Below, piece after piece: positions 212 to 53,260 of a stretch of DNA of 53,260 bases; positions within the stretch are counted from its first letter, which is position 1, and every line of letters starts with the position of its first letter. The stretch covers positions 1-53,260 of the forward strand of contig JAHIUN010000014.1 of the NCBI GenBank assembly GCA_018817125.1. Direction: 5' to 3'. Source of the DNA: Patescibacteria group bacterium (GTDB taxonomy: Bacteria; Patescibacteriota; Gracilibacteria; UM-FILTER-43-11). The translations under genes and the position numbers were made by a program. The notes beneath the pieces were generated by a model. It was not told the origin of the DNA. It saw only the letters and a list, made by a program, of their open reading frames with translations, and searched no databases.

Positions 212-240
212 TTGACAAAAATCATTTTTTATTATAAAAT
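212..240 (+). promoter_or_regulatory. sigma-70 promoter of the high-GC lipoprotein gene
   Basis: TTGACA (212-217) is followed after 17 bases by TAAAAT (235-240), close to consensus. The predicted start near 247 leaves a leader of about 84 nt before the ATG at 331. The leader holds a small GTC-T-rich loop-GAC hairpin at 260-273. Confidence 0.7.
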
Positions 241-330
241 AATGCACTTTCATGCGAGCGTCGTTTTTTTGACTGCCGTATGGAGTAAGCTGCTTGTTCT
301 TAAACCTTTTCGGTTACCAAGGAGGTTCCG

Positions 331-687
331 ATGAAACGCTTTTCCCTGCTTCTGGCGGTCCTGCTGACCGCCATCATGGCCGGAGGGTGTCAGGAAGGTC
401 CTCAGATCTTCATGGAGACAACGCATCACGACTTCGGAGAGGAGGGCGACTTCCTCGGCGGGGTGATCTGCGTCGACAGCAATGTGGCCGGTTGCCCGTT
501 CACCATCGAGGATCGTCTCTACACCTACTCCGTGAAGGATGCCACGTTCAAGTGCAACCTTCTGCCATCGGAAGGGTATACAGTCACCTTCGAGGAAGTG
601 CCGGGCTACGAGAGTCCCGGCGCCATCGAGTTCGAGCTGAAGGCCGGACAGGAAACATTTGTCCGCGCCGTGTATCGTCCGAACTGA
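331..687 (+). CDS. small high-GC lipoprotein
   Basis: 118 residues with a basic start (MKR), a hydrophobic stretch at 5-17 and a lipobox-like AGGC ending at Cys20. It is therefore probably exported and lipid-anchored. The mature part has three further cysteines (47, 55, 75) and no family I recognise. The start is fixed by AAGGAGG at 319-325, five bases before ATG. That strong site is unlike almost every other gene here. GC content and codon choice are clearly higher than in neighbouring ftsK. The gene has its own consensus promoter and a terminator-like hairpin, so it forms a one-gene unit that could be recently acquired. It stops at TGA. Confidence 0.8.
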   Translation: MKRFSLLLAVLLTAIMAGGCQEGPQIFMETTHHDFGEEGDFLGGVICVDSNVAGCPFTIEDRLYTYSVKDATFKCNLLPSEGYTVTFEEVPGYESPGAIEFELKAGQETFVRAVYRPN

Positions 688-704
688 CGTCAGGCAGCTT
701 CATC

Positions 705-5096: not shown

Positions 5097-6277
5097 AAAC
5101 TGAATTCAATCGTCTCTTCTTTCAGAAGGCTTTTCAGGCTGTAAGCCCGCACCGTCAGCTTAAGGGCTTTTCCTTTACGATGCGAACGTTTTAGAATGCG
5201 CATATTTTGTTTGGTCAGGTCGGTCATGGCGAATTCCCGCTCTCCATCGTTTTCCAGAATCACGGTGTAGCGATTGATGTCCGGCACTGGATCCCAGCGG
5301 ATCAGGAAAGAACGGCTAGTCTCTTCATAAATCCTTAGATTCAAATTTGTATCTCCATCCGAAAACATATCATCCGAAAGGACCGAAGCCTTAGGAGTGG
5401 ATCGGACCTCTGTGCTCCAGTCATCACTCACGTTTCCGCTCGTGTCTATTGCCAGCACCCAGAAAAAATAGACCTCATTATTCTCCAGTTCGCTGATGGT
5501 CAAAGAGGTGTTTTTGGTTTCGGTCTGGTTCGGCATATTCTGCCAGGGGATGTCTTTGGTGGTCAGATGGGCATTGTTGTAACTCACAACATAATGATCG
5601 ATTCCCACATTATCTTTCGCCGCTCGCCAGGTTAAACCCACTTTCTTATTCCCCGGAGAGGCTTGTACATTGGTAACAGTTGTCGGAATCTGAATATCTT
5701 CTTCATCAGCATCCTTTTTAGGAGCTTCATCGGCTTTGAAATGAGGGGGTCGGCGAACATAATCCACCGAACACTGTCCGTCTTTATTCGGTAAATAGAT
5801 CTTATCCCCTTTGGCTAAACCACCAGAGCCCTGAAGAATATAAATATTGTCTTTTGAATACCGTGGCATGGCCTGGCAGAAGGGAAGATATTCCATAAAA
5901 TATTCTTCACCCGATTCATCGATCACCCAGGCCTCCGTGTTGCCGGCAAAAACAAATTTCACATAATATTTTTGGGTGTAACGTTCCGCCTGGTCAATGG
6001 CACACTGGTGCGTGGCGTCCACTTTTAAAATATCCCCATTAGAATTCAGGGCTCCACGGATGGAAACCGACACATTTTGCCCATCGGTCAATTCTCCGCA
6101 CCCTGTCTGCAGGTGTAACAAATACGGCTCATCGGTTTTCGGATGAAGAATGGTGATGCTCCGCCGGCTGATGACTTCATCGATCTGAACCCGGTACAGG
6201 GTATCCGCCTGAACGGAATGAATAGTCGGGATGAAGAGGAGGCCGATGAGGAGACTTAAAACAAATAGTTTTTTCAT
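5093..6277 (-). CDS. secreted protein with fibronectin type III domain
   Basis: Starting at the ATG at 6277, the protein has 394 residues with a clear signal peptide (KK, then LFVLSLLIGLLFIP, cleavage near HSVQA-DT). Two beta-rich segments with paired cysteines follow. Next come an acidic linker and an FN3 domain (roughly residues 200-300: VTNVQASPGNKKVGLTWRA, then YFFWVLAIDTSGNVS). A second FN3-like repeat ends the protein (SFLIRWDPVPDINRYTV). FN3 modules usually mediate protein or glycan contact, so a cell-surface role is likely. An upstream in-frame ATG at 6322 would add 15 residues encoded by the spacer repeat and hide the signal peptide; I reject it. Confidence 0.8.
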   Translation of the reverse strand: MKKLFVLSLLIGLLFIPTIHSVQADTLYRVQIDEVISRRSITILHPKTDEPYLLHLQTGCGELTDGQNVSVSIRGALNSNGDILKVDATHQCAIDQAERYTQKYYVKFVFAGNTEAWVIDESGEEYFMEYLPFCQAMPRYSKDNIYILQGSGGLAKGDKIYLPNKDGQCSVDYVRRPPHFKADEAPKKDADEEDIQIPTTVTNVQASPGNKKVGLTWRAAKDNVGIDHYVVSYNNAHLTTKDIPWQNMPNQTETKNTSLTISELENNEVYFFWVLAIDTSGNVSDDWSTEVRSTPKASVLSDDMFSDGDTNLNLRIYEETSRSFLIRWDPVPDINRYTVILENDGEREFAMTDLTKQNMRILKRSHRKGKALKLTVRAYSLKSLLKEETIEFSF

Positions 6278-9734: not shown

Positions 9735-9823
9735 ACTTGGCAGACCTTCGCTGAAGCTTCGGCCTACCGCACTTCGCTGACTACTCGCTTGGGCTTGCCA
9801 GCCGTAGCTCGTAGAGCGAAGGC
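9735..9823. repeat. palindrome-rich spacer downstream of tRNA-Glu
   Basis: This stretch contains CCTTCGCTGAAGCTTCGG and a hairpin of GCCAGCC with GGCTGG around a CGTAGCTCGTAGAGCG loop region. Such TTCGCTCTACGAGCTACGGC-type sequences recur in CPR genomes. It would form the 3' trailer of the tRNA transcript on the minus strand. Confidence 0.5.
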
Positions 9824-9898
9824 TGGTAGGGCCAAGGGGAATTGAACCCCTGTTACCAGGATGAAAACCTGGCGTCCTAACCACTAGACGATGGCCCC
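9824..9898 (-). tRNA. tRNA-Glu (anticodon TTC), CCA encoded
   Basis: On the minus strand the 5' acceptor GGGGCCA pairs with TGGCCCT (one G-U pair), followed by discriminator A and an encoded CCA. The D arm is CGTCTAGTGGTTAGGACG. The anticodon stem CCAGG/CCTGG encloses loop TTTTCAT, giving anticodon TTC. The T arm is AGGGG-TTCAATT-CCCCT. All arms fold, and the sequence closely follows bacterial tRNA-Glu. Confidence 0.95.
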
Positions 9899-9971
9899 GC
9901 GTCAGAATTGTTCTCCAGCTTACGCTTCGATGTTACCATCAGAGCTTCAGCTTTCGCAAATCCTTCCTCTT

Positions 9972-10007
9972 CCCCACAAAATTCGCTTCGCTTCGCATTT
10001 TGTGGGG
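9972..10007. repeat. perfect 11-bp hairpin with CGCTT-repeat loop
   Basis: CCCCACAAAAT (9972-9982) is complementary to ATTTTGTGGGG (9997-10007). The loop is TCGCTTCGCTTCGC, a repeated CGCTT unit. It lies in the predicted leader of the tRNA-Glu transcript (minus strand), so it may guide 5' processing or be a mobile palindrome. Confidence 0.6.
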
Positions 10008-10042
10008 GCCCCATCTCTGAGGCTTGCATAGTATGCAGAGAA

Positions 10043-10070
10043 ATTATACTTACAGAGAACTAAATGTCAA
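10043..10070 (-). promoter_or_regulatory. consensus promoter reading toward tRNA-Glu
   Basis: On the minus strand TTGACA (10070-10065), 16 bases, TATAAT (10048-10043). The start would be near 10036, about 138 nt before the tRNA. The -35 box overlaps that of the divergent plus-strand promoter. Confidence 0.65.
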
Positions 10071-10091
10071 AATTATTTTATATGGTAAAAT
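10064..10091 (+). promoter_or_regulatory. promoter of the C39-like lipoprotein
   Basis: ATGTCA (10064-10069), 16 bases, TAAAAT (10086-10091), with an extended TGG. The leader of about 155 nt contains two copies of a CATTACATT(T/C)GG-like unit (around 10197-10235). Confidence 0.5.
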
Positions 10092-10252
10092 ATTTTCCAC
10101 TACTGAGGAGCTTTCCCGTACTGTCTCAATAGGGAAGCGTTTGAATCACTTGAAAAGTTTTCCGCCTTGCTCCACACTTTCCTACGTAATTCATCCTCAT
10201 TACATTTGGCCATTCGGCCTGCATTACATTCGGACCACGTTTCTCGCTACTT

Positions 10253-10993
10253 ATGAAAAAACTCCTCATCCTATCATTGCTCATCTTAACCGCCTGCGCA
10301 CCTAACGAGGCGGACTTTAAATCGAATGTACCAATAGGTCTTCCAATTGAGGACCCGGTCGAAGACCTAATGGATCGTATAACTGATGATCAGTCAATTG
10401 GGACCTCAACGGGCCTTCCATCGGAAATCAATCTAAACGTTCCTTTCTTCTCCCAGGCTCCAGACGCGGATTGGGGAATGCCGTGGCAGGAAGCGTGTGA
10501 AGAAGCCGCCAGCACACTCGCTTATTACTACGCCGTCGGTCAGCCGCTCACGAAAGAAAAGTTTAAGCAGGAGGTGTTAGCGCTGGTGGAATGGCAGGAA
10601 GAGCATTTTGGGGGGTATGAACATTCCGACATCAAACAGACAGCCATGATGATAAAGGGTCACTTTTTAGACACGTCGTCCAACAAGGTCGAAATGGCCA
10701 TCATCGAAGAACCGACCGTCGATGAACTGAAAGAATTTATCGCGGAGGGTTATGTAGTCATTGCCCCGTTTGCCGGCCGGCAGCTCGGCAATCCGTTTTA
10801 TTCCGGCGAGGGCCCGCTTTATCACATGCTCGTTATAAAGGGTTACGACGAAAAACACTTCATCACCAATGATGTGGGCACCAAGCGGGGTGAGAATTTT
10901 ATTTACCCTTACCAAACCATGATGTCCGCGATGCACGAATGGCATGATACCGATATCAACTTGGGCATGCGAAAAGTGATTGTATTAAAATAA
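10253..10993 (+). CDS. lipoprotein with C39-like cysteine peptidase domain
   Basis: 246 residues. Signal peptide MKKLLILSLLILTAC has a lipobox with Cys15. After a linker (about 20-60) comes a papain-like peptidase C39 family fold: INLNVPFFSQAPDADWG, catalytic Cys82 in QEACEEAAS, His191 in LYHMLVIKGY, and Asp207 in ITNDVG. It would act outside the membrane, on peptides or cell-wall peptides. The linker DNA (about 10328-10422) carries the 12-mer AATTGAGGACCC and the 11-mer GGGCCTTCCAT, both found in the spacer repeat at 40809-40913. The linker therefore appears to be built from a repeat insertion. No SD site precedes the ATG. Confidence 0.8.
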   Translation: MKKLLILSLLILTACAPNEADFKSNVPIGLPIEDPVEDLMDRITDDQSIGTSTGLPSEINLNVPFFSQAPDADWGMPWQEACEEAASTLAYYYAVGQPLTKEKFKQEVLALVEWQEEHFGGYEHSDIKQTAMMIKGHFLDTSSNKVEMAIIEEPTVDELKEFIAEGYVVIAPFAGRQLGNPFYSGEGPLYHMLVIKGYDEKHFITNDVGTKRGENFIYPYQTMMSAMHEWHDTDINLGMRKVIVLK

Positions 10994-11000
10994 TAACGCT

Positions 11001-11231
11001 ATGGCCGGAATATCCAAAGAACAGATTGAAGTGACCGTTGAGTCAAAGTTACACCCATACAATGCAATTAAATTTGGATCGGTTTTAGCCAATGTAAGGG
11101 AAAAAATCATATTTTTAATCCAGAAGGAGGCGGGAAAGAAATGAACAATCCAGCTAGTTAGAGGAACAAAAGAGGATTTATTAAAGGCGATTAAGATGGC
11201 CACAGGGGTGACTATGCCAAATGAGGATTAG
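11001..11231 (+). pseudogene. hypothetical ORF interrupted by an in-frame TGA
   Basis: From ATG 11001, 47 codons read well (ending KEAGKK), then TGA at 11142-11144. The same frame continues for 28 codons (TIQLVRGTKEDLLKAIKMATG and on) to TAG at 11229-11231. Composition on both sides is protein-like. The 3' end overlaps the stop of convergent murJ. I do not recognise the product. Explanations are a nonsense-mutated gene, a sequencing error, or readthrough. TGA is a true stop at several neighbouring genes, so global recoding is unlikely. Confidence 0.5.
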
Positions 11232-12579
11232 TCCTTTCTCTTTTTTTCAGAAGTGAAGGAAAGACAAACGCCAATAACGAGATTTGGATGGTTTTACCTA
11301 TGCCAAAACTAATGGGGATGGCGTACACGCCGATCACAGGAGCCAGCCGGGTGACTATCATAATCACGAGTGAAATAACTCCCACATGAATGATGGACGG
11401 GATGAGTGTATTCCGCAAAGAGTAAAATGCGCGATGGTAACAATGCATCAGGCTTTCCAGCGGAATCGTGAAGCAGTACAGGATCAGCGTCATAGAAACT
11501 AAATGAATAGCCTCCCCGTCAAATGCTCCACCACCCAATAACAAGCTCACCACAAAACGACTCAAAACACCCAGTGCAATAGCCGCCAGTACCGTGTAAA
11601 CAATTAGCTTAAAGCGGTTCCGCCTAAAATCATTTCGGAATTTTTTATAATTTCCCTTACCGGCATCATGCGACAGTACGGGATACATCGCCATCGAAAT
11701 CGCTATTCCGAGCAAGCTCACCGGCAGGCTCTGAAAGTTACGGGCGTAATTGTAGGCGGCAATACTCCCCTCCGGCAGTTTTGAAGCGACATTGGTAAAA
11801 ACCATCAGCAGAATAAACCACATGCTGTACTGGAAGATTTTAGGCAGCATCAATCCGATTGTTTCCTTTATCTCAGGCGCGAAGGTAAAGTCGATTTTGT
11901 TTTTAAAGCCATATTTCTTCCGTTTAAGCGGGGCAAAACGGTTGGCGAGATGCAAAATTACACCGATTAACGTTCCCATCACCAATCCCAGCATTCCAAA
12001 GCGTGGCACGAGGAATAAAACGCCGATTATTATTCCTAAATTATAAAGTGCTGGCGAAAGCCCCCACCAGAAAAATTCCTTCACACTAATAAGTATCCGG
12101 CCATACGAATTGCTGAGGGTAAATAAAATCGGCGACAGCAGCATCGCGCGCGTCAGTAAAATATACTGCTTCAAATCCTCCCCCTCAAAACCGGGTACCA
12201 GCAGATGAGCGAAATAGGGGAGAAAGATCGCCACTATAATTCCGACGGTAACAATTAATGTTACGCCCCAGGTGATCATCTGATGGGCGTACGCGTATCC
12301 GAGCGACCTTTTTTCGTCGTACAGTTTTGTAAAGATCGGCACGAACGCAGCTGACAGCGCTGTTCCCACCAATACTCCTAACATCATATCCGGAATCACA
12401 AACGCGGCATTATAAATATCCAGTGTCCGCGACAGGCCAAACGTCTGCGCGAAAATCCGGTCTCTCAGCATCCCCATTCCATAACTCAGCCCCGCGGTCA
12501 GCGTTAGCGACCACGAAGAATGGAAAAGAAGGGTTTTCCAGTCACCGGATTCTTTGAGGGCTTTTAAAAATTTGATCAT
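11212..12579 (-). CDS. murJ: lipid II flippase MurJ (MviN)
   Basis: 455 residues, somewhat shorter than the usual 500 or so. It moves lipid II across the membrane for peptidoglycan synthesis. Many hydrophobic helices are visible. N-terminal family signatures include GLSYGMGMLRDRIFAQTFG and the DIYNAAFVIPDMM...ALSAAFVPIF region, with cytoplasmic loop FTKLYDEKRS. The C-terminus stops after about 12-13 helices, so the last helix pair of longer homologues may be missing. Its ATG abuts the TAA of the acetyltransferase gene (TAAATG), so the two are co-transcribed and probably coupled. Confidence 0.92.
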   Translation of the reverse strand: MIKFLKALKESGDWKTLLFHSSWSLTLTAGLSYGMGMLRDRIFAQTFGLSRTLDIYNAAFVIPDMMLGVLVGTALSAAFVPIFTKLYDEKRSLGYAYAHQMITWGVTLIVTVGIIVAIFLPYFAHLLVPGFEGEDLKQYILLTRAMLLSPILFTLSNSYGRILISVKEFFWWGLSPALYNLGIIIGVLFLVPRFGMLGLVMGTLIGVILHLANRFAPLKRKKYGFKNKIDFTFAPEIKETIGLMLPKIFQYSMWFILLMVFTNVASKLPEGSIAAYNYARNFQSLPVSLLGIAISMAMYPVLSHDAGKGNYKKFRNDFRRNRFKLIVYTVLAAIALGVLSRFVVSLLLGGGAFDGEAIHLVSMTLILYCFTIPLESLMHCYHRAFYSLRNTLIPSIIHVGVISLVIMIVTRLAPVIGVYAIPISFGIGKTIQISLLAFVFPSLLKKRERTNPHLA

Positions 12580-20475: not shown

Positions 20476-21195
20476 ATGGAACTCATCTCGCTAAAAAGCC
20501 GGCGCCTGAAACCCAACGACGATCTCCTCGCGGCGCTCAAAAAAGCGTTCGGAAAAAGAAAGCTTAAAGAAGGCGATATCCTCGTGATCGCGTCCAAAGC
20601 CGTGGCGTACAGCCAGGGCCGTTTAGTGCTAGTTAAAAGTAAAAAAGAATTCAGAAAGCTGATTGAAAAAGAAGCCGATGCGGTTCTGGATGAAGGTGAA
20701 ATGGTCATCACACTTAAAAATCACATCCTCATTCCCAACGCCGGGATCGACAATAGTAACACACCAAAAAATACCGTCGTCCTATGGCCGGATAAACCTT
20801 TTAAGGCGGCCCAGAAAATCCGTCAGAAATTGATTAAAAATTACAAAATTAAAAATTTAGGAATTGTTATAAGTGATTCTCATTGTCAGCCCCTTCGCGC
20901 AGGAACATCGGGCATCGCGATTGGCTGGGCAGGTTTTATGGGCGTTCAGGATGAGCGGGGTAATAAGGATCTGTTCGGAAAAAAAATGGAATACACGCAG
21001 ATCGCGGTGGCCGACGACCTTGCCTCATCCGCTAATCTGCTGATGGGCGAGACCAACGCCTCCATTCCCTTTGTCATCGCGCGCGGATTAAAAGTAAAAT
21101 GGTCAGAAAAAAAGTTTTCGGAAAAAGATTATTTCATCCACCCGAAAGAATGTATTTATAAGCATTTTTACAGCAAAAAACTTTTGAATACCTAA
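20476..21195 (+). CDS. CofE-like F420-0:glutamate ligase family protein
   Basis: 239 residues. Family signatures are KEGDILVIASKAVAYSQGR, NAGIDNSN, ISDSHCQPLRAGTSGIAIGWAG and DDLASSANLLMGE. In F420-producing organisms CofE adds gamma-linked glutamates to coenzyme F420-0. Homologues occur widely in CPR bacteria that lack the rest of the pathway, so the true substrate is uncertain, and no cofC, cofD or fbiC is visible here. The gene starts 7 bases past a repeat hairpin, with no SD site. Confidence 0.88.
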   Translation: MELISLKSRRLKPNDDLLAALKKAFGKRKLKEGDILVIASKAVAYSQGRLVLVKSKKEFRKLIEKEADAVLDEGEMVITLKNHILIPNAGIDNSNTPKNTVVLWPDKPFKAAQKIRQKLIKNYKIKNLGIVISDSHCQPLRAGTSGIAIGWAGFMGVQDERGNKDLFGKKMEYTQIAVADDLASSANLLMGETNASIPFVIARGLKVKWSEKKFSEKDYFIHPKECIYKHFYSKKLLNT

Positions 21196-21223
21196 AAAAA
21201 TGGGACGCCCTTTCGAGCGTCCC
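21194..21223 (-). terminator. intrinsic terminator of the 69-residue gene
   Basis: On the minus strand GGGACGC, loop, GCGTCCC, then ATTTTTTT: a strong intrinsic terminator. On the plus strand the same hairpin lies just after cofE-like but lacks a T-run. Confidence 0.85.
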
Positions 21224-21268
21224 AAATGGGTGCATGCAAACCAGTTCGAACCGCTCTAGGTCAGGATG

Positions 21269-21478
21269 TTACAGGATCTGGTGTCCGGTGTATGCATCAC
21301 ACACCTTGGTTTCGGTGACGCAGGCACGGATGCGCACTGTCCCACCTCTTACCGACGGGACCCTGAGGGTGATGTCCGTCGGATAACTTTCAATCCCATT
21401 TCGCCGCTTGCGTGCGGCGTTTTTCAACTTCCGCTGATCAGCTGGGTGTAGAGTAGAAAAGCAGCCTTTTTGTGCCAT
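21269..21478 (-). CDS. small high-GC basic protein, 69 aa
   Basis: 69 residues starting MAQKGCFSTLHPADQ, with a basic patch (RKLKNAARKRRNG) and a beta-rich end (ITLRVPSVRGGTVRIRACV). No family recognised. The ATG at 21478 is chosen because an AAGGAGGAG site lies 6 bases upstream on the minus strand, the strongest Shine-Dalgarno site in the window. It has its own TTGACA/TAAAAT promoter, a leader of about 120 nt and an intrinsic terminator. Together with 331-687 it forms a distinct class of small, high-GC, self-contained units. A function cannot be assigned. Confidence 0.7.
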   Translation of the reverse strand: MAQKGCFSTLHPADQRKLKNAARKRRNGIESYPTDITLRVPSVRGGTVRIRACVTETKVCDAYTGHQIL

Positions 21479-21600
21479 GTACACTCCTCCTTGAGGTAGG
21501 TTTTCAGTACTACGCTTACAGGTTTGCGGTTTGCGATGCTCCCTTTGGTCTTAAGATCAGCCACACCGAATAGGGTGGGCAAGAGTCTAAAAACAGACCG
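21479..21600 (-). promoter_or_regulatory. long structured leader of the 69-residue gene
   Basis: About 120 nt of untranslated RNA. It begins with a GTCT-GTTTTT-AGAC hairpin (21585-21598), followed by a CACC...GGTG pairing region, and ends with the SD site. No known riboswitch class is recognised. An attenuator or RNA-binding site is possible. Confidence 0.45.
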
Positions 21601-21605
21601 CCCCT

Positions 21606-21633
21606 ATTTTATCCGTAAAATTTTATATGTCAA
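21606..21633 (-). promoter_or_regulatory. consensus promoter of the 69-residue gene
   Basis: On the minus strand TTGACA (21633-21628), 16 bases, TAAAAT (21611-21606). Confidence 0.7.
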
Positions 21634-21638
21634 TTGCA

Positions 21639-21727
21639 AACGAAATGACGATATAACGAAATGACATAAGATTGTTAATTCGGTCTGTTTTGTTGTATGG
21701 TCATATCGTCATTTCGTCACTTCGTTA
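21639..21727. repeat. repeat-armed hairpin directly before purN
   Basis: The left arm holds AACGAAATGACG twice in altered form (21639-21665). The right arm is TCGTCATTTCGTCACTTCG and flanking bases (21702-21727). About 22 of 26 positions pair. The purN ATG at 21730 follows at once. Confidence 0.7.
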
Positions 21728-21729
21728 TT

Positions 21730-22344
21730 ATGTACAAAGTAGCCGTTCTCGCCTCTACCAATGGCACCAATTTCCAGTCCCTCATCGACGCCAAAAAGTC
21801 AGGGGTTTTAAAAGACAATGTCGAACTTTGCTGTTTGGTGACTAATAAAGAGTGCGGCGCCATCGAAAAAGCCATATCAGCCGGCATTCCCTATTATATA
21901 GTCGATCAAAAGGGAGAAAGCCGTGAGGAATTTGATGATAAGGTTATGACCATTCTGGATGAATACCAGCCCGACCTCCTTGTCCTCGGCGGTTATATGC
22001 GGATTGTCAGCAATGGTATGGTCGATAAATACCGCAACCGCATCATTAACATTCACCCCAGCTTACTCCCCAAATATGGCGGAGGAATAGATGTGTCTGT
22101 GCATCAGGCTGTTATCGACGCTGGTGAAGAAGAAACTGGCATGACCATCCATCTTCTCGATGAAGGGGTGGACACGGGCCCGATTGTCCTCCAGAAATCC
22201 TGCCCCGTCGATTCGTCCGACACACCGGAAATCCTGAAAGAAAAAGTGCAGGCGCTGGAAAAAGAGTGGTATCCCAAAGTCGTCCAGCTGTTCGCGGATG
22301 GGAAAGTTACCGTTCAAGATAACCACGTTGTGATCCATGAATAA
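21730..22344 (+). CDS. purN: phosphoribosylglycinamide formyltransferase PurN
   Basis: 204 residues. It transfers a formyl group from 10-formyl-THF to GAR in purine synthesis. Motifs are VAVLASTNGTNFQSLIDA (GxGSN region with S/T change), PDLLVLGGYMRIV, NIHPSLLP (catalytic Asn/His) and the GxTIHxLDEGVDTGPI loop with its Asp. The in-frame upstream start at 21697 would be encoded by the repeat arm, so the ATG at 21730 is preferred. The stop overlaps the next start in ATGAATAA (22337-22344), suggesting translational coupling. Confidence 0.94.
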   Translation: MYKVAVLASTNGTNFQSLIDAKKSGVLKDNVELCCLVTNKECGAIEKAISAGIPYYIVDQKGESREEFDDKVMTILDEYQPDLLVLGGYMRIVSNGMVDKYRNRIINIHPSLLPKYGGGIDVSVHQAVIDAGEEETGMTIHLLDEGVDTGPIVLQKSCPVDSSDTPEILKEKVQALEKEWYPKVVQLFADGKVTVQDNHVVIHE

Positions 22345-23785: not shown

Positions 23786-24799
23786 ATGCCTGAAAAAGAA
23801 TCCCCTTATAAAATCAGCCCGCCCGCCAAAAAGGAGCTGAAGACAGACCCTCTGAAAAAAGAGATCAGTAAACCGGAAGAACCCCGTGAAGATATCCAAA
23901 AAAAAGCTTCCGAATTGGTCAAAAAGGCGGATTTGAGTCTTCCTTATGAAGAAACGTATGCTGCGACGCTCGAGGCTCGGGAAAGATTGGCCAGGGAGAA
24001 AGAAAAAGCTGAAAAAGGAAAAGAAGTTTTGAGCAAAAAAGAAAAGCTCCGGAATCAACTTGTGGAAAAGGGGCTTAAAGACGAAGCCTTATTGGCCTTT
24101 GAAAGCGCTTATAACCCGAAAATATCCCCAAAAATCAAACAGATCTTAACAGATAAAAAATTGGACATCCGAAAGCCGCAGACATGGGATACAGTCCATA
24201 AACTTCTCACAACTCCCGCGAAAGACAAACCCTATTTCTGCGAAGCGTATGTGGATGAATACAAGAATTTTATTCCTTTGGTTCCTTTGGTTTCCCCGGA
24301 AGAAAAGCCGGTTTATGTGGCGGATTTTGAAAAAATGGATTTAGAAGGTGAAAATATAATTAAAGGAGATGCGGGTGAGACAGTCGCAGAAGGGCCTGAA
24401 AAAAGAAAAATGGAATTTAATAAGCAGGTGCTGGCGGTTGAGAATCCTGTTAAATCCGTGGACGATGTTTACGCGTATGTGGAAAAACTGCCCAGTGAAT
24501 TGCAGGATGATGTGGCCGTGATGCTGGATGAAAGTGATCTAAAAAACATGAATCTTTTTAAGCTCAGGCAGGTTGCTCAATATATCAATGGCATTGCGGA
24601 AGGCAAGGATAAAAAAGAGCCTCTCCGCAAACTCCGTGTCGCTTTAGGCAGGGAAGCGCTGAGCGAGAAAGATGTCAGAATGGCTGAAAAAGTCGAGGGG
24701 AAAGGGATTTTGGGAATCGATAAGAAAGACCTGCCCCAAAATGTATTTGGCGAAGAAAAGCCACAGGTCAGCGGTATATCCACCCGAAAACCACGATAG
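23786..24799 (+). CDS. hypothetical charged cytoplasmic protein, 337 aa
   Basis: No signal peptide or membrane segment. Residues 1-110 are Lys/Glu-rich and coiled-coil-like (EARERLAREKEKAEKGKEVLSKKEKLRNQL). The middle has a globular stretch (TWDTVHKLLTTPAKDKPYFCEAY). The C-terminal part has helical segments (SVDDVYAYVEKLPSELQDDVAVML). I recognise no family. It has a good promoter and an SD-free leader. Its TAG is one base from the asnS stop, so there is no room for a terminator between the convergent genes. Confidence 0.75.
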   Translation: MPEKESPYKISPPAKKELKTDPLKKEISKPEEPREDIQKKASELVKKADLSLPYEETYAATLEARERLAREKEKAEKGKEVLSKKEKLRNQLVEKGLKDEALLAFESAYNPKISPKIKQILTDKKLDIRKPQTWDTVHKLLTTPAKDKPYFCEAYVDEYKNFIPLVPLVSPEEKPVYVADFEKMDLEGENIIKGDAGETVAEGPEKRKMEFNKQVLAVENPVKSVDDVYAYVEKLPSELQDDVAVMLDESDLKNMNLFKLRQVAQYINGIAEGKDKKEPLRKLRVALGREALSEKDVRMAEKVEGKGILGIDKKDLPQNVFGEEKPQVSGISTRKPR

Positions 24800-35516: not shown

Positions 35517-35853
35517 GGATTCGTTGGTAACGCTAGTGATTAACAACTGAAAGATTTACAGGTAAGAAGGTCACTTGTCAAATAATTTGGGCAAATGAAT
35601 TGATGTTCAGGATTTAAAGACATTAAAATTATTAAAATGTCAATTTTTGCTTTAAATAAGCCAAAAAGAACATTATTTTTACTGGTAAATTTCCTTTTTC
35701 GTCAAATCTTCGATTTTTGGCTTAAATACTGAATTAAATGTGAATACAAAATTGTATCAATCGACTTTTTCGCTAGCTAAAGCGAAAAACCCCTTGTCAT
35801 GCTGATTTTCGCTGATTATACTGCCTTTGTTTTAATTCCTAATATTTTTTATT
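35517..35853. promoter_or_regulatory. divergent control region between topA and hup
   Basis: 337 bases, A/T-rich, without a gene. It contains the topA promoter (35553-35581, minus) and the hup promoter (35794-35822, plus). AAGCCAAAAA (35658-35667) is complementary to TTTTTGGCTT (35714-35723), a spaced pair that could be an operator or loop site. A TTTTTCGCT/AGCGAAAAA hairpin (about 35766-35788) just upstream of the hup -35 box looks like a bidirectional terminator or binding site. Confidence 0.55.
35794..35822 (+). promoter_or_regulatory. hup promoter
   Basis: TTGTCA (35794-35799), 17 bases, TATACT (35817-35822). Leader about 25 nt without SD. Confidence 0.75.
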
Positions 35854-36129
35854 ATGACTAAGCAAGATTTAGTTACGGCGATTGCGTCCAGCGCTGGCGT
35901 GACCAAAAAAACAGCTGGTGTCTCTTTAGACGCTCTCCTTGAATCCATTACTAAAGAACTTAAAAAAGGAAAAAACGTGACCATCACTGGTTTCGGCACC
36001 TTCCGCATCAGCAAACGTGCTGCCCGCACGGGTGTAAATCCTCGCAATCCATCTCAAAAAATCAAAATTCCTGCAATGAACATCCCTGCTTTTAAAGCTG
36101 GCAAAAGCCTTAAAGACGCTGTTCGCTAA
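35854..36129 (+). CDS. hup: HU-family nucleoid protein
   Basis: 91 residues, the usual length. Features are MTKQDLVTAIASSAGVTKK, the dimer core KKGKNVTITGFGTF, and the DNA-binding beta-arm RTGVNPRNPSQKIKIPAMNIPAFKAGK with the intercalating Pro. It bends and compacts DNA. It stands alone with its own promoter and strong terminator, diverging from topA, so supercoiling control of both is plausible. Confidence 0.96.
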   Translation: MTKQDLVTAIASSAGVTKKTAGVSLDALLESITKELKKGKNVTITGFGTFRISKRAARTGVNPRNPSQKIKIPAMNIPAFKAGKSLKDAVR

Positions 36130-42106: not shown

Positions 42107-45100
42107 ATGAAAAAGGCTTTTAGCCCACAATCTCATTACTACGTTTTCGCGCTCCTGTTTGCCATAATGGCTATTATGGGGGGTGTTTTTTATGATGATA
42201 TTCAGAATATCGGATTGCGAGCGGATGATTGGGATGTTCCCACGGCCACCACGATCAGTAATGTCAGCCCGGTCTTCACCACCACGCCCGCGGATGATTC
42301 CGATAGTTCATCACCCACCAATATTGGCAGCGATGTGACCTTTACCGGCGCCGCGACTGATTTAAACGGCGACCAGTATTATCTGGCGATCTGTAAAACC
42401 GATGCGGTGTCGGTAGGCGATAATGCGGCCCCCACCTGTACGGGTGGGGAGTGGGATATCAGCGCCGTGACGAACAGCGGATCGGCGCCCACCGTATCAC
42501 CCACTTATACCGTTACCAGTAGTGAGACTAACGAAACCTATGATTGGTTTGCTTTTGTGTGCGATAAAAAAGTGTCGGCCGATAACCCTGCCTGTTACCC
42601 GGGCAATGATTCAGGCGATCAGGGTTCCGCGTTAGGAACGGTAACGTTATCTGATATTCCGGTCGATGAAGCGACGGTGACCATCGATAGCGTTGCCTAT
42701 GAATTCGACGATAACAGTTCTTACACCGGTACGCAGGTCGATGTTTCTGCTTCCCAAACTCCCGCGGAAGCGGCTGAAGAATTGGTGACGGTGGAAGCAG
42801 GCAGCAGCTCTTCCATGGTCCGTCGCGGGAATATTATTTATGTGTACGCCGATACCGAAGGGGTGGGCGGCAATTCCATCGCCATGAGCAAATCCGGCGA
42901 TACGGGCGATGACATCGCCTTGTCCGGTTCCACGCTTTCCGGCGGAAGTGATACGGGCAAGTCGCCATTTAATGTAAATCATGGGCCGACTTTTGGCAGT
43001 GTTACCGTAACCGACGCCACTGAACTTTTAACCAACGGTACTATGGAAACAGGCGATCCTCCAAGCAACTGGCCGATCACCGCTGACGCAACGGTTACCT
43101 CAGTGGCGGATGAACGGGATGGAGGAAGCGGTTCGAGTTCCATGGAGGCGACCAAAGATGTGAACACGTGGGTCGCCAGACAGGATATTACAACCGTTAT
43201 CGGAGATACGTATCGCGGAAGCGCGTGGCTGAAGAACATCGACGCGACCTACGCCCGTGTGCTTATTTCAAATTCGAACAATAGTGTCGTTTATTCAGAT
43301 ACTCCTATCACAGCCACTGTCTGGACATACACCAGCTTTACTTTTGTCGCCGAGGACACAACGACCCGGGTCTGGTATACGATCAGCGGCGATTCCGGAG
43401 GCACGGCAAGACTGGATGATATTTCCGTTGTCGGAGCCAGCATCGAACCAGGTGATAATCTTCGCTTCATACTCCCCCAGGCGGAGATCGCCGATAGCGA
43501 TACGGAAGGAGGACAGGATACCCTCAATATGCACATCTGCACGGACGCCACCACCTCTTTCAATTACTCCACCAATGCCTGCACAGGCGGCTCCCTCATC
43601 TGTTCCGTCACGTCCGTTGACCCCACTTCTCAGGATGCCGCGTGCGACGAATCCGGCAATGCGCTGGCGCCAGTGCCAACCGCTCATGGTTCGTATAATT
43701 TTAAGGTCTATGTGGAAGATAGCCACGATATGGCAGGCACCGGCACCAATCAGCAAAGTTATTCCGTGGAGGATGTACTGCCGGTACTGGTGAGCTATTC
43801 CACAATCGACACGCTCTCGATCGCGGCGGGTGGCAGCGACACGCTCACTTATTCGGTTTCGCTTACGGATGACAACGGTGATAACGACGTCACCGACCTT
43901 TCCATGACTTTCTTTGATTCCAATGAAGTGAACAGCGACTGCGATACGGATGAAAACGATTGTTATTCAGAAAATATCGCCGGCAACTGCGCATGGACCA
44001 ATAAAGGTTCCGGCACGGATAATGCGCTCGGAGCGGATTGCGATTACACCATTTACTTTAATGCCAATGCCGGCACTAACTGGGAGGTGGCGGCCACCGT
44101 TGTCGATGGGAATGGCAGTACGGATCTGGGAGCTTCCACCGCTCAGGATTTCGAGATTGCATCCCTGCAGGGGATCGATGTGGTCCAGACCACGATTGCT
44201 TATTCTACGGTTGAGATCGGCGGCACATCGGATCCGATTGAAACATCGATGGGCAATGTGGGTAATACCGATATCGATATCCTTATCCATGGCGCCGATA
44301 TGACCTGCCAGACATCGGCTACATGCGGTTCGAACACCATCGGCCAGGAACAGCAGCGATGGCATTCGGGCAGTAATTCATTTGACTGGGATGATTCTGA
44401 AACCGGCGATGGCCCTTATATATTGGATGAGACATCCGGAACAGGCGGCGGCGGTGCGGGCTGTATTGATCACGATTTAAGAAAACGGGATAGTTACAGC
44501 AGTACGTCCATCAACCAATCTGTTTACTGGAAACTTCGTATTCTCAGCTCCCAATCCTCCGGTAATTATCAAGGCAGTAATACCTTCACCTCAACTGCCG
44601 GTTGTGACGCGGAGACCTGTAACAATAGCACCGATGATGACGGGGACGGCCGGACGGATTGCGCTGACCACCACGATTGTGATTTGTCCGCTTTATGCAC
44701 AGAGCTCGATCTGCCCATGGGCACCGCTCAGCATGACAGCGGCAATAATCGCACGCTCGACACAAGTCCAAACGGTAATCATGCGATATTTGGTGACGGG
44801 GCAACGTCCACCACTTATCCAACCAAGCTAAGCCCTATGGTGGGTTATGAACTGGACGGCGGTGATTACTTTGACGCGGGCGATGTATTTACCACTAATC
44901 AAACTGAATTCACTGCCAGTGCCTGGGTATATGTAGATGCGTTTAATACACATATTTCCACCAATATAAGGACACCCTTTATATCAGATTGGAACACATG
45001 GGATGTGGGCGGTCAGGAGGGATTTAATTTGAATGCCTATTATTCTCAGGCTACTGACACGATGGGCTGGCAGTTTAATATTGCGGACGGAACGGACTAT

Positions 45101-50620: not shown

Positions 50621-53260
50621 ATGACCACCAAAACGCGCCTTTTCCGCACTCTGCTCATGGTCCCCATCCTGCTTTTAGGGCTGGCGGTTTTTGGGCTGTA
50701 TGAAATGATTGAAGCAGATACGTTCGATACAGAAGCCGGTGTGAGCAATGCGTCTCCCGTTATCAATCAAACCCCAGCCGATGATTCCGATGCCACGACG
50801 CCCACTAATGCAGAGGATGATGTGACGTTTACCGGAAAGGGGATTGATGTCGGGAGTGAGAATTATTATATGGCTTTTTGTTCCAGCGACCAAGTGACGC
50901 ATAATGGCACGTCCGCCCCCATCTGTGAAGACGCGGACCATACCTGGGCCATCAGTTCCTCCACGGTCAGCAATACGGCTATCGGTAGCGGCTCCGGTAT
51001 TACTTATACAACCACCGGCAGTGAAAGCAGCGGCACCAATGGCTGCACCGATGATGAATCCTGCCCGTGGTATGCCTTTGTTTGTGATGCAGTTGTCGGC
51101 GGGTCCTGTTACCCGGCCAACAGTTCCGGTGATCAGGGCTTTGCGCTTGGTACCATCACTTTTTCTGATGTGCCTGAAGACGGCGATACGATTACAATCG
51201 ATAGCATTACCTACGAATTTGATACTGCGGGTGACGGAATCAGTTCAGGCACTGAGGTGGACACTGCCCTTTCTGCTTCCGAACAAGACGCAGCGTACGA
51301 ACTGGGAGCCGTCGAAGCAGGAACCAGTTCTCATATGGCCGTCCGCGGCGCCGTGGTGTACGTGTACGCAGATGCTGAAGGAACCGGCGGCAATTCTATC
51401 GGCATGACCGAACCGGATGCAAACGAAGGCGGTTCAACAAGTGAAATTGTACTTTCCGGCACTGTTCTTTCCGGCGGATCAGCCACAGGCCAGTCACCAT
51501 TTAAAATTAATCATGCATCTACATTTGGAACAGTAACAACAACAGATAATGATGACCCTTTGACAGATGGTGATATGGAAGCGGCGGATGCCAGCGCATG
51601 GACTGCAGGAAATGATGCTACCCTTACTAAGGAAACAGGAACACCACATGGAGGAAGCCGGGTATTAAGAATTGCTTATGGCAGCAGTACCAATCCTTAT
51701 GCTTATCAAAACGTAATGACATCCGGTACTAGTTATCACGTAACAGGATGGGCAAGGGGAGATGGGACAAATAGACCGAATATACAGGATGGTGCAGCGT
51801 ATATCTGGACAGGAACAACATCAACTTCCTGGCAATATTTCGACTTTGTGCGCATATGGGGAAGTTCTATCTTTTATTTACAGACACTTGCGACAGGAGC
51901 GGGTTATTCAGAATTCGATGATGTTTCCGTTGTTGGAACTGAAATAAACCCCGGCGATACACTTCGGTTTACTTTTGCACAAGCAGACATAGCTGATACT
52001 GATACTGACGATACTCAGGACACTATTAACATGTACATTTGCACAGATGCGACAACCGCTTTTGATTATTCTGGTAATTCCTGTACAAACGGTTCACTTA
52101 TCTGTTCAGATACAGGTGTTGATCCAACATCAACCGATGCCACATGTGATGAAACAGGAAATACATTAGTTCCTGCTACCGATATTCACAGCACTGAAAA
52201 CTTCAAGGTTTACGTCGAAGACAGTCATGATTTCACTGGCACTGGAACGAATGCACAAAGTTACGATATTGCCAATACCGCGCCCACTCATGATACCCCT
52301 GAACTGGATGTTCACGCACCCACATTGCCTAATTCCGTTGGTTATTGGCAGTTTGAAGACGGAACATCCGCCACAGCTTTTGATGATGAGACTTCAAATG
52401 ATTTTGATGGGGTCTGTACAAATTGTCCGGACTGGGCAGAGGAGGGTGTCATCGGAGGAGCTTATGATTTTACTACAGCTAATAGCGATATTATTGATCT
52501 TGGGAACGACCCATTATTACGACCTACAGAAGAAATAACTGTCATGGCCTGGGTAAAAAGCAATACCACGGATAATGTGGAGGTTGTTAGCTATAGGAAA
52601 GATGCTCCTGCTGGTTGTTATGCCTTGTATGAAATTATGGACAGTTCGGTTTGTGTGGACTTGGATGACGGAACTACTGATGGTGTATCGGAAGATTCCG
52701 CATTTAACTCAACATTGCCTGGCGATGGAACTTGGCATCATGTGGCAATGACTTATTCCAGGAATGACCAGATATTAAAATCTTATATGGATGGAGTGCT
52801 TCAAACTGATCAGGAAGCTACAGGAGATTACCCATTGTATACCGAACATGCCAGTTTGGATAAGTTGTTTGTAGGTGCTGCCCAGCCTACTCTTAGACAT
52901 TTTGACGGCTCTGTTGATGAACTTCACATTTACGATCGCGCCCTTACAACCGATGAGATCACAGCTATATACAATGCTTACACCACTCCCGGTACCACGG
53001 CTTATACAGATTCCAATATGGATATTTCCGCTAAGCCGATAACCATTGATGACCATGACAGCGACACCACCACCACAATTTATAACTGGGAAAAAGACGG
53101 CAGCAGTATCGCGGTTTTAAATATGCCGTTTGACAGCAATATGACCTCGACCGCCGCGGATGCTGTTAAGGATTACAGTACGTATGAAAATAATGGCACG
53201 CTGGCCGCCAGCACAGCCACTCCGACATGGACCAATGCGGCCACCTGCGGAAATTATTCC
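50621..53260 (+). CDS. giant LamG-domain surface protein, 5' part (runs off the window)
   Basis: Open for 880 codons from ATG 50621 to the window end with no stop. Signal anchor at about 7-28. Modules match the 42107 protein in order: TPADDSDATTPTNAEDDVTFTG (shorter than one module), the TIDSITYEFDT...VVYVYADAEGTGGNSIGM repeat, a CBM4/9-like fold (about 305-440), then a LamG domain (about 568-780: TVMAWVKSNTT, TWHHVAMTYSRND, SVDELHIYDRALTTDEI). A second LamG-like unit begins near the end (VLNMPFDSNMTS). It is a surface paralogue bracketing the hydrogenase genes. The later part of the gene is more A/T-rich than the first 900 bases, hinting at a mosaic origin. Confidence 0.85.
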   Translation, partial: MTTKTRLFRTLLMVPILLLGLAVFGLYEMIEADTFDTEAGVSNASPVINQTPADDSDATTPTNAEDDVTFTGKGIDVGSENYYMAFCSSDQVTHNGTSAPICEDADHTWAISSSTVSNTAIGSGSGITYTTTGSESSGTNGCTDDESCPWYAFVCDAVVGGSCYPANSSGDQGFALGTITFSDVPEDGDTITIDSITYEFDTAGDGISSGTEVDTALSASEQDAAYELGAVEAGTSSHMAVRGAVVYVYADAEGTGGNSIGMTEPDANEGGSTSEIVLSGTVLSGGSATGQSPFKINHASTFGTVTTTDNDDPLTDGDMEAADASAWTAGNDATLTKETGTPHGGSRVLRIAYGSSTNPYAYQNVMTSGTSYHVTGWARGDGTNRPNIQDGAAYIWTGTTSTSWQYFDFVRIWGSSIFYLQTLATGAGYSEFDDVSVVGTEINPGDTLRFTFAQADIADTDTDDTQDTINMYICTDATTAFDYSGNSCTNGSLICSDTGVDPTSTDATCDETGNTLVPATDIHSTENFKVYVEDSHDFTGTGTNAQSYDIANTAPTHDTPELDVHAPTLPNSVGYWQFEDGTSATAFDDETSNDFDGVCTNCPDWAEEGVIGGAYDFTTANSDIIDLGNDPLLRPTEEITVMAWVKSNTTDNVEVVSYRKDAPAGCYALYEIMDSSVCVDLDDGTTDGVSEDSAFNSTLPGDGTWHHVAMTYSRNDQILKSYMDGVLQTDQEATGDYPLYTEHASLDKLFVGAAQPTLRHFDGSVDELHIYDRALTTDEITAIYNAYTTPGTTAYTDSNMDISAKPITIDDHDSDTTTTIYNWEKDGSSIAVLNMPFDSNMTSTAADAVKDYSTYENNGTLAASTATPTWTNAATCGNYS

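Follow-up and report, generated by a model that had tools for sequence, protein, structure and literature searches.

Candidate rRNA-like mRNA format, combining a boxA-like site with a leader–trailer helix, in a family of Peregrinibacteria

A short transcription unit of an uncultivated Peregrinibacterium may be laid out in the manner of a ribosomal RNA precursor, with boxA and a leader–trailer helix arranged around a single protein gene, a reading to which we give roughly even odds. This monocistronic unit (called unit 2; 21194-21633, minus strand) lies in the window, a stretch of 53,260 nucleotides from a genome of 1.03 Mb. Its parts follow the order promoter, 5′ hairpins, boxA-like site, leader strand of the helix, Shine–Dalgarno (SD) site, small ORF, trailer strand and terminator. 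The anatomy, the conservation of the helix and the co-occurrence of such helices with boxA are established here from sequence comparisons.

The unit 2 promoter, TTGACA-N16-TAAAAT (21606..21633), has the same -10 region and spacer in the same-genus orthologue and precedes a leader of about 125 nt. The leader opens with a hairpin, GTCT-GTTTTT-AGAC (21585..21599; the hairpin itself at 21598-21585), both stems of which are invariant in the two species and so offer no test by covariation. An internal hairpin, GCCCACC-CTATTC-GGTGTGGC (21560..21580), belongs to the predicted minimum-energy fold in both species. It is followed by a boxA-like motif, TGATCTTAAGACC (21547..21559), with the core TGNTCTT and a weak 3′ half, which is invariant in the two species and adjoins the leader strand of the closing helix, CCAAAGGGAGCATCGCAAACCG (21527..21548). 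The 7-bp core of this helix has predicted pair probabilities of 0.97-1.00. Further downstream lie the SD region, ACCTCAAGGAGGAG (21484..21497), where a small CCTC/GAGG hairpin can form over the SD site AAGGAGGAG (21492-21484), an ORF of 69 codons (21269..21478), the trailer strand TGGTTTGCATGCACCCATTTGG (21222..21243) and an intrinsic terminator (21194..21224; stem 21224-21201, then a T-run), all on the minus strand. An earlier note on this DNA had described the promoter, the T-rich hairpin, the strong SD, the 69-residue ORF and the intrinsic terminator, and all of these are present as it described them.

Taken alone, the unit 2 leader is not an unusually stable fold (z +1.2). A candidate upstream leader peptide was rejected because a 1-nt indel interrupts its GTG-started 16-codon frame in the aligned orthologue. 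Within 21547-21599, GGTCT (21599-21595) has two alternative partners, AGAC (21588-21585) and AGACC (21551-21547), and these alternatives possibly constitute a two-state switch over the boxA-like motif, whose end is AGACC.

The leader is exceptionally conserved. Genome G001, of the same genus, carries unit 2 at the same place on a syntenic contig, and the same leader is carried by contig JAFGCR010000048.1 (‘Candidatus Peregrinibacteria bacterium isolate Zod_Metabat.1128’). It is 95-98% identical to that of the same-genus orthologue, and positions 21524-21623, at 98%, form the most conserved non-coding 100-nt window in the 34-kb alignment of the two genomes, exceeded only by a stretch within one coding gene. 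Upstream of the promoter, the two genomes align poorly. The 3′UTR and terminator are conserved as well, with a compensatory change of GGGACG:CGTCCC to GGGGCG:CGCCCC in the terminator stem of the orthologue. Few genes are less conserved than the ORF (67.6% nucleotide and 62% amino acid identity, compared with 77-90% nucleotide identity for most neighbours), and its dN/dS of 0.33 exceeds the 0.03-0.12 of most other genes. It is clearly coding, because it has no indels, keeps the same stop, shows changes by codon position of 16/17/35 and has a dN/dS that indicates purifying selection. The earlier note had named the lack of any conservation of leader or ORF in related genomes as evidence against its proposal; both are kept in the same-genus genome.

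Such a leader in front of a fast-evolving ORF, together with the two mutually exclusive stems at 21599-21547, is what would be expected of an ordinary gene-specific cis-regulatory leader, either a riboswitch or a protein-binding element, whose complementarity to the 3′UTR arose by chance. We consider this account quite improbable. A search of 21150-21680 against Rfam yielded nothing above chance and no match at the gathering score, a tRNA elsewhere being the only match in the window. The leader occurs at one locus per genome and in two genomes only, unit 2 being known from two species. A scan of 84,980 genomes with a 17-nt leader pattern gave 32 matches, about the number expected by chance, with none in viral contigs, and only the same-genus contig among them scores with the unit 2 leader model. 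Furthermore, a cis-regulatory leader leaves unexplained why a complementary 3′UTR is conserved and why the same design recurs in unit 1 and in other genes.

Unit 1, on the plus strand near the start of the window, agrees with its description in the earlier note. It comprises a TTGACA-N17-TAAAAT promoter (212..240), a 5′ hairpin (251..282), the leader strand of a closing helix, AAGCTGCTTG (287..296), a boxA-like motif, TGTTCTTAAACC (295..306; 10/12), an ORF for a lipoprotein-like protein of 118 aa with distant homologues in other genera (331..687) and the trailer strand CAGGCAGCTT (691..700). The suggestion that units 1 and 2 share an RNA control element, made from the T-rich hairpins with which both leaders begin, is partly supported: a common RNA-level design does exist, in the form of a helix between leader and 3′UTR beside a boxA-like motif, but it does not reside in those hairpins. 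Indeed, the likeness of the two leader starts was equalled in 254 of 1000 shuffles and is therefore not above chance, and the hairpins are unrelated by sequence. In the unit 1 orthologue, the hairpin stems show compensatory changes (CATGCG/CGTATG to TATGTG/CGCATA and GTC/GAC to GCC/GGC), and the T-rich loop is gone. A covariance search of 353 genomes with the unit 2 leader model returned two orthologues only. On these three results, the T-rich hairpin is rejected as an element common to the two units.

What the two units do share emerged from whole-transcript folding, in which each leader pairs with the 3′UTR just before the terminator, thereby enclosing the gene. The predicted pairs are GGGAGCATCGCAAACC with GGTTTGCATGCACCC in unit 2 and AAGCTGCTTG with CAGGCAGCTT in unit 1, the latter with pair probabilities of 0.77-1.00. 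A long-range leader–trailer helix of the kind found in pre-rRNA can thus be drawn for both transcripts. Each helix by itself is only moderately unusual when compared with shuffled sequences (that of unit 1 scores poorly when the tails, terminator included, are shuffled, P 0.20), and support for the helices therefore rests on conservation. For units 1 and 2, the best helix is the same in both species, which holds for no other of about 24 genes. Whole transcripts are more stable than their shuffles, with z values of -4.9 for unit 1 and -2.8 and -1.9 for unit 2. Homologues of unit 1 in two other genera, found by protein search only, carry helices of their own: 12 perfect bp of GTTGTTTGGTCT/AGACCAAACAAC in G002, and 11 perfect bp of ATGTTTGTCTG/CAGACAAACAT in G010, where the gene also lies upstream of ftsK. 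The sequences of these helices are unrelated, which amounts to covariation of an entire helix. On these comparisons, the closing helix of these units is well supported.

Two complementary strands around an ORF are by definition inverted repeats, and they could in principle flank an invertible or mobile cassette and act as DNA rather than by RNA pairing. We find this very improbable, as each locus has a repeat of its own, homologues have wholly different ones, and neither the location nor the orientation of units 1 and 2 differs between the two species. Moreover, the helices contain several G-U pairs and switch between G-U and Watson–Crick pairs. For example, in the same-genus orthologue of another enclosed gene (C1:51171, described below), U-G becomes C-G and A-U becomes G-U while the trailer stays constant, changes that fit RNA rather than DNA pairing.

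The position of the helices bears on a further possibility, that the 3′UTR strand folds back and, as in icaR, governs ribosome access or creates a site for RNase III, or else keeps the message inactive in the manner of hok. Pairing between the 5′UTR and 3′UTR of one mRNA is an anatomy that these units share with icaR of Staphylococcus aureus, whose 3′UTR covers the SD and blocks translation (PMC3868564). In the units described here, the helix instead lies upstream of the SD and involves the 3′UTR near the terminator. The partner of the trailer strand lies 20-80 nt upstream of the start and is not the SD; in unit 2, for example, the trailer pairs at 21548-21527 and the SD is at 21492-21484, so the SD is not covered as in icaR, even though it can form its small local hairpin.

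Messages of hok-type type I toxins are likewise structured RNAs of about 400 nt in which a small ORF lies between ends that pair. The basic unit 2 protein, with a predicted helix and beta strands, is not a small hydrophobic membrane toxin, and the only promoter that a sigma-70 consensus scan of 21150-21750 found is that on the minus strand, the other strand having nothing similar. The design also occurs with larger, non-toxin genes, some encoding proteins of 267 to 547 aa. Fold-back control is thus improbable, if less so than a role of the repeats in DNA.

Further enclosed genes were sought within the family. When every ORF with an SD was screened, closing helices were not in excess, although the top matches, C1:44545, C1:51171 and C1:23972, were clean transcription units. 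Among 40 units running from promoter through SD and ORF to terminator, 8 had helix scores of at least 26 compared with 1.1 expected with swapped 3′UTRs, and 4 had scores of at least 30 compared with 0.34. These screens cover less than 1 Mb of the family, use consensus matches as promoters and terminators, and include a same-genus pair that is not independent. The further units in G000, the genome of the window, are C1:44545 (44545-44742), encoding a 65-aa membrane peptide, with 15 perfect bp; C1:51171 (51171-51974), encoding a 267-aa membrane protein, with 14 bp; C1:23972 (23972-24508), encoding a 178-aa lipoprotein; C1:9759 (9759-11402); and, in the same genome, C5:5149 (5149-5697). Helix lengths in the further family units range from 14 to about 19 bp, and several homologues of C1:51171 have weak helices. 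The enclosed genes are mostly GC-rich (0.52-0.61; 0.42 for C1:23972) and encode mostly proteins of the membrane or for export, and boxA-like sites flank the helix. In G003, of another genus, the stretch of C1 from 40001 contains a 14-bp helix around a gene for an exported 353-aa protein (stretch position ~27894), a helix of about 19 bp around one for a 190-aa protein (~80508) and an 18-bp helix around one for an exported 125-aa protein (~141034). In 400 kb from two genomes of two other families of the class, no mRNA unit with boxA was found, and the E. coli control, at 3 units only, is too small to inform.

The helix usually adjoins or overlaps a boxA-like site of the TGNTCTTTAACA type. The rrn boxA consensus GYTCTTTAANA, as given in PMC5725501, is gamma-proteobacterial. 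The rrn leader of the organism itself carries boxA as TGTTCATTAACA, and that of G010 has both boxA and a leader–trailer helix. Similar sites occur in C1:51171 (TGATCTTTAACA, 12/12 if any base is allowed at position 3), its G010 homologue (TGTTCTTTAACA), C5:5149 (TGGTCTTTAACA), C1:44545 (TGGTCTTTAAAA) and C1:9759 (TGATCTTTTACA). As judged from sequence, there is good support for boxA in unit 1 and several of the others. In unit 2, boxA is not established, because the motif TGATCTTAAGAC is degenerate and matches at only 8/12, a score equalled by another stretch of the leader. Nevertheless, it has the core, is invariant in the two species and adjoins the helix.

With a boxA pattern set a priori from E. 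coli and own-family rrn sequences and a threshold of at least 10/12, all five boxA units were closed, and of the 51 others 11 were (P 0.001). The core TGNTC[TA]T, refined after some leaders had been seen, lies at most 8 nt from the helix in 9/16 closed units compared with 1/40 (P 1e-5), in a set that includes orthologues. In a later 395 kb, for which the rule was fixed beforehand, 3 such units were found compared with 0.41 expected (maximum 2 in 200 swaps); neither Fisher test by itself reached significance (P 0.15 and 0.32). This held-out set includes the 18- and ~19-bp helices of G003 and a G010 helix over a 12/12 boxA, the G010 gene having been met previously as a homologue.

It is this association that speaks against a simpler account, in which the mRNA is a panhandle whose helix only protects it from nucleases, Nus factors have no role and, in unit 2 at least, the resemblance to boxA is incidental. 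That account draws on the fact that the unit 2 helix is better supported than its boxA, and it would suit an SD outside the helix, the stability of the whole transcripts and the apparent absence of Rho described below. But boxA-like motifs and helices co-occur and adjoin one another across genes and genera, and we therefore regard a panhandle without Nus factors as possible but rather unlikely.

If the rRNA-like layout is correct, its operation can be outlined from ribosomal precedent. In rRNA operons, NusB binds boxA, looping out of the nascent RNA has been proposed, and pairing of trailer and leader takes place close to the polymerase (PMC10250234). By analogy, NusB and S10 would bind boxA of these units, and the Nus complex would keep the leader close to RNA polymerase as transcription proceeds through the gene, which loops out. 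The trailer would then pair with the leader beside boxA, closing the mRNA, and where it covers boxA it would displace the Nus complex just before the terminator. Closure may in turn affect mRNA stability. Because the SD lies outside the helix, the closed mRNA would still be translatable and would be protected at both ends.

NusB is encoded in five of the five genomes tested, above the cut-off. A search for the Rho RNA-binding domain found none in G000, G001, G002, G003 or G010, whereas the positive control matched in 9 known genomes. Unless a divergent Rho was missed, protection against Rho is thus unlikely to be the main role of these sites, and antitermination of that kind is disfavoured.

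The resemblance to known systems has limits. The pre-16S rRNA leader also has boxA near the leader strand of a long-range, transcript-closing helix (PMC10250234), but that helix has 25-40 bp and lies 18-19 nt downstream of boxA, whereas the helices of the mRNA units have 10-20 bp, enclose a translated ORF and adjoin or overlap boxA, which in unit 2 is degenerate. The suhB gene likewise has a boxA-like site in the 5′UTR of a protein gene, where the reported effect is repression, with Rho-dependent termination; the available text mentions no trailer partner (PMC5725501), in contrast to the complementary 3′UTR strand, and the lack of a detectable Rho RNA-binding domain, in the present case. A literature search, short of a full review, found no mRNA that combines boxA with a leader–trailer helix, and Rfam holds no family of such closed boxA mRNAs.

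That several genes of the family are built alike points to ribosomal RNA as the model from which an mRNA design was copied. We tentatively propose, as a broader and less secure claim, that this Peregrinibacteria family, apparently without Rho, has made boxA, Nus factors and the leader–trailer helix a general format for mRNAs of membrane, exported and orphan small proteins, in which the trailer, often complementary to boxA, would end Nus modification at the terminator and yield closed, rRNA-like messages. If so, bacteria make some of their mRNAs in the closed form typical of rRNA, a dedicated gene set joins rRNA and the few mRNAs in which boxA and Nus factors are known to function, and a role of boxA apart from antitermination against Rho is indicated. 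The proposal also gives a search rule for any genome, namely boxA next to a strand that can pair with the 3′UTR of the same gene, and, for a lineage with little experimental data, the testable prediction that mutations of the helix and of boxA should separate RNA folding from antitermination.

The unit 2 protein had no relatives beyond the two genomes among 353 genomes of the class, nor, in a less sensitive scan, among 84,980 species, IMG/VR or phage records. It matched no known protein family, solved structure or fold, and weak hits to uL29 (E 1.1) and PAS-like folds (E ~0.8) were dismissed as noise. In several family genomes, the 16S rRNA matches its model in pieces; the split, located at model position 873/874 for G003 and G000, may reflect an insertion, an intron or a contig break. 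Elsewhere in the window, non-coding positions 35644-35853, upstream of an HU-like gene (35854-36129), are up to 96% identical per 100 nt between the two species and may represent another regulatory leader.
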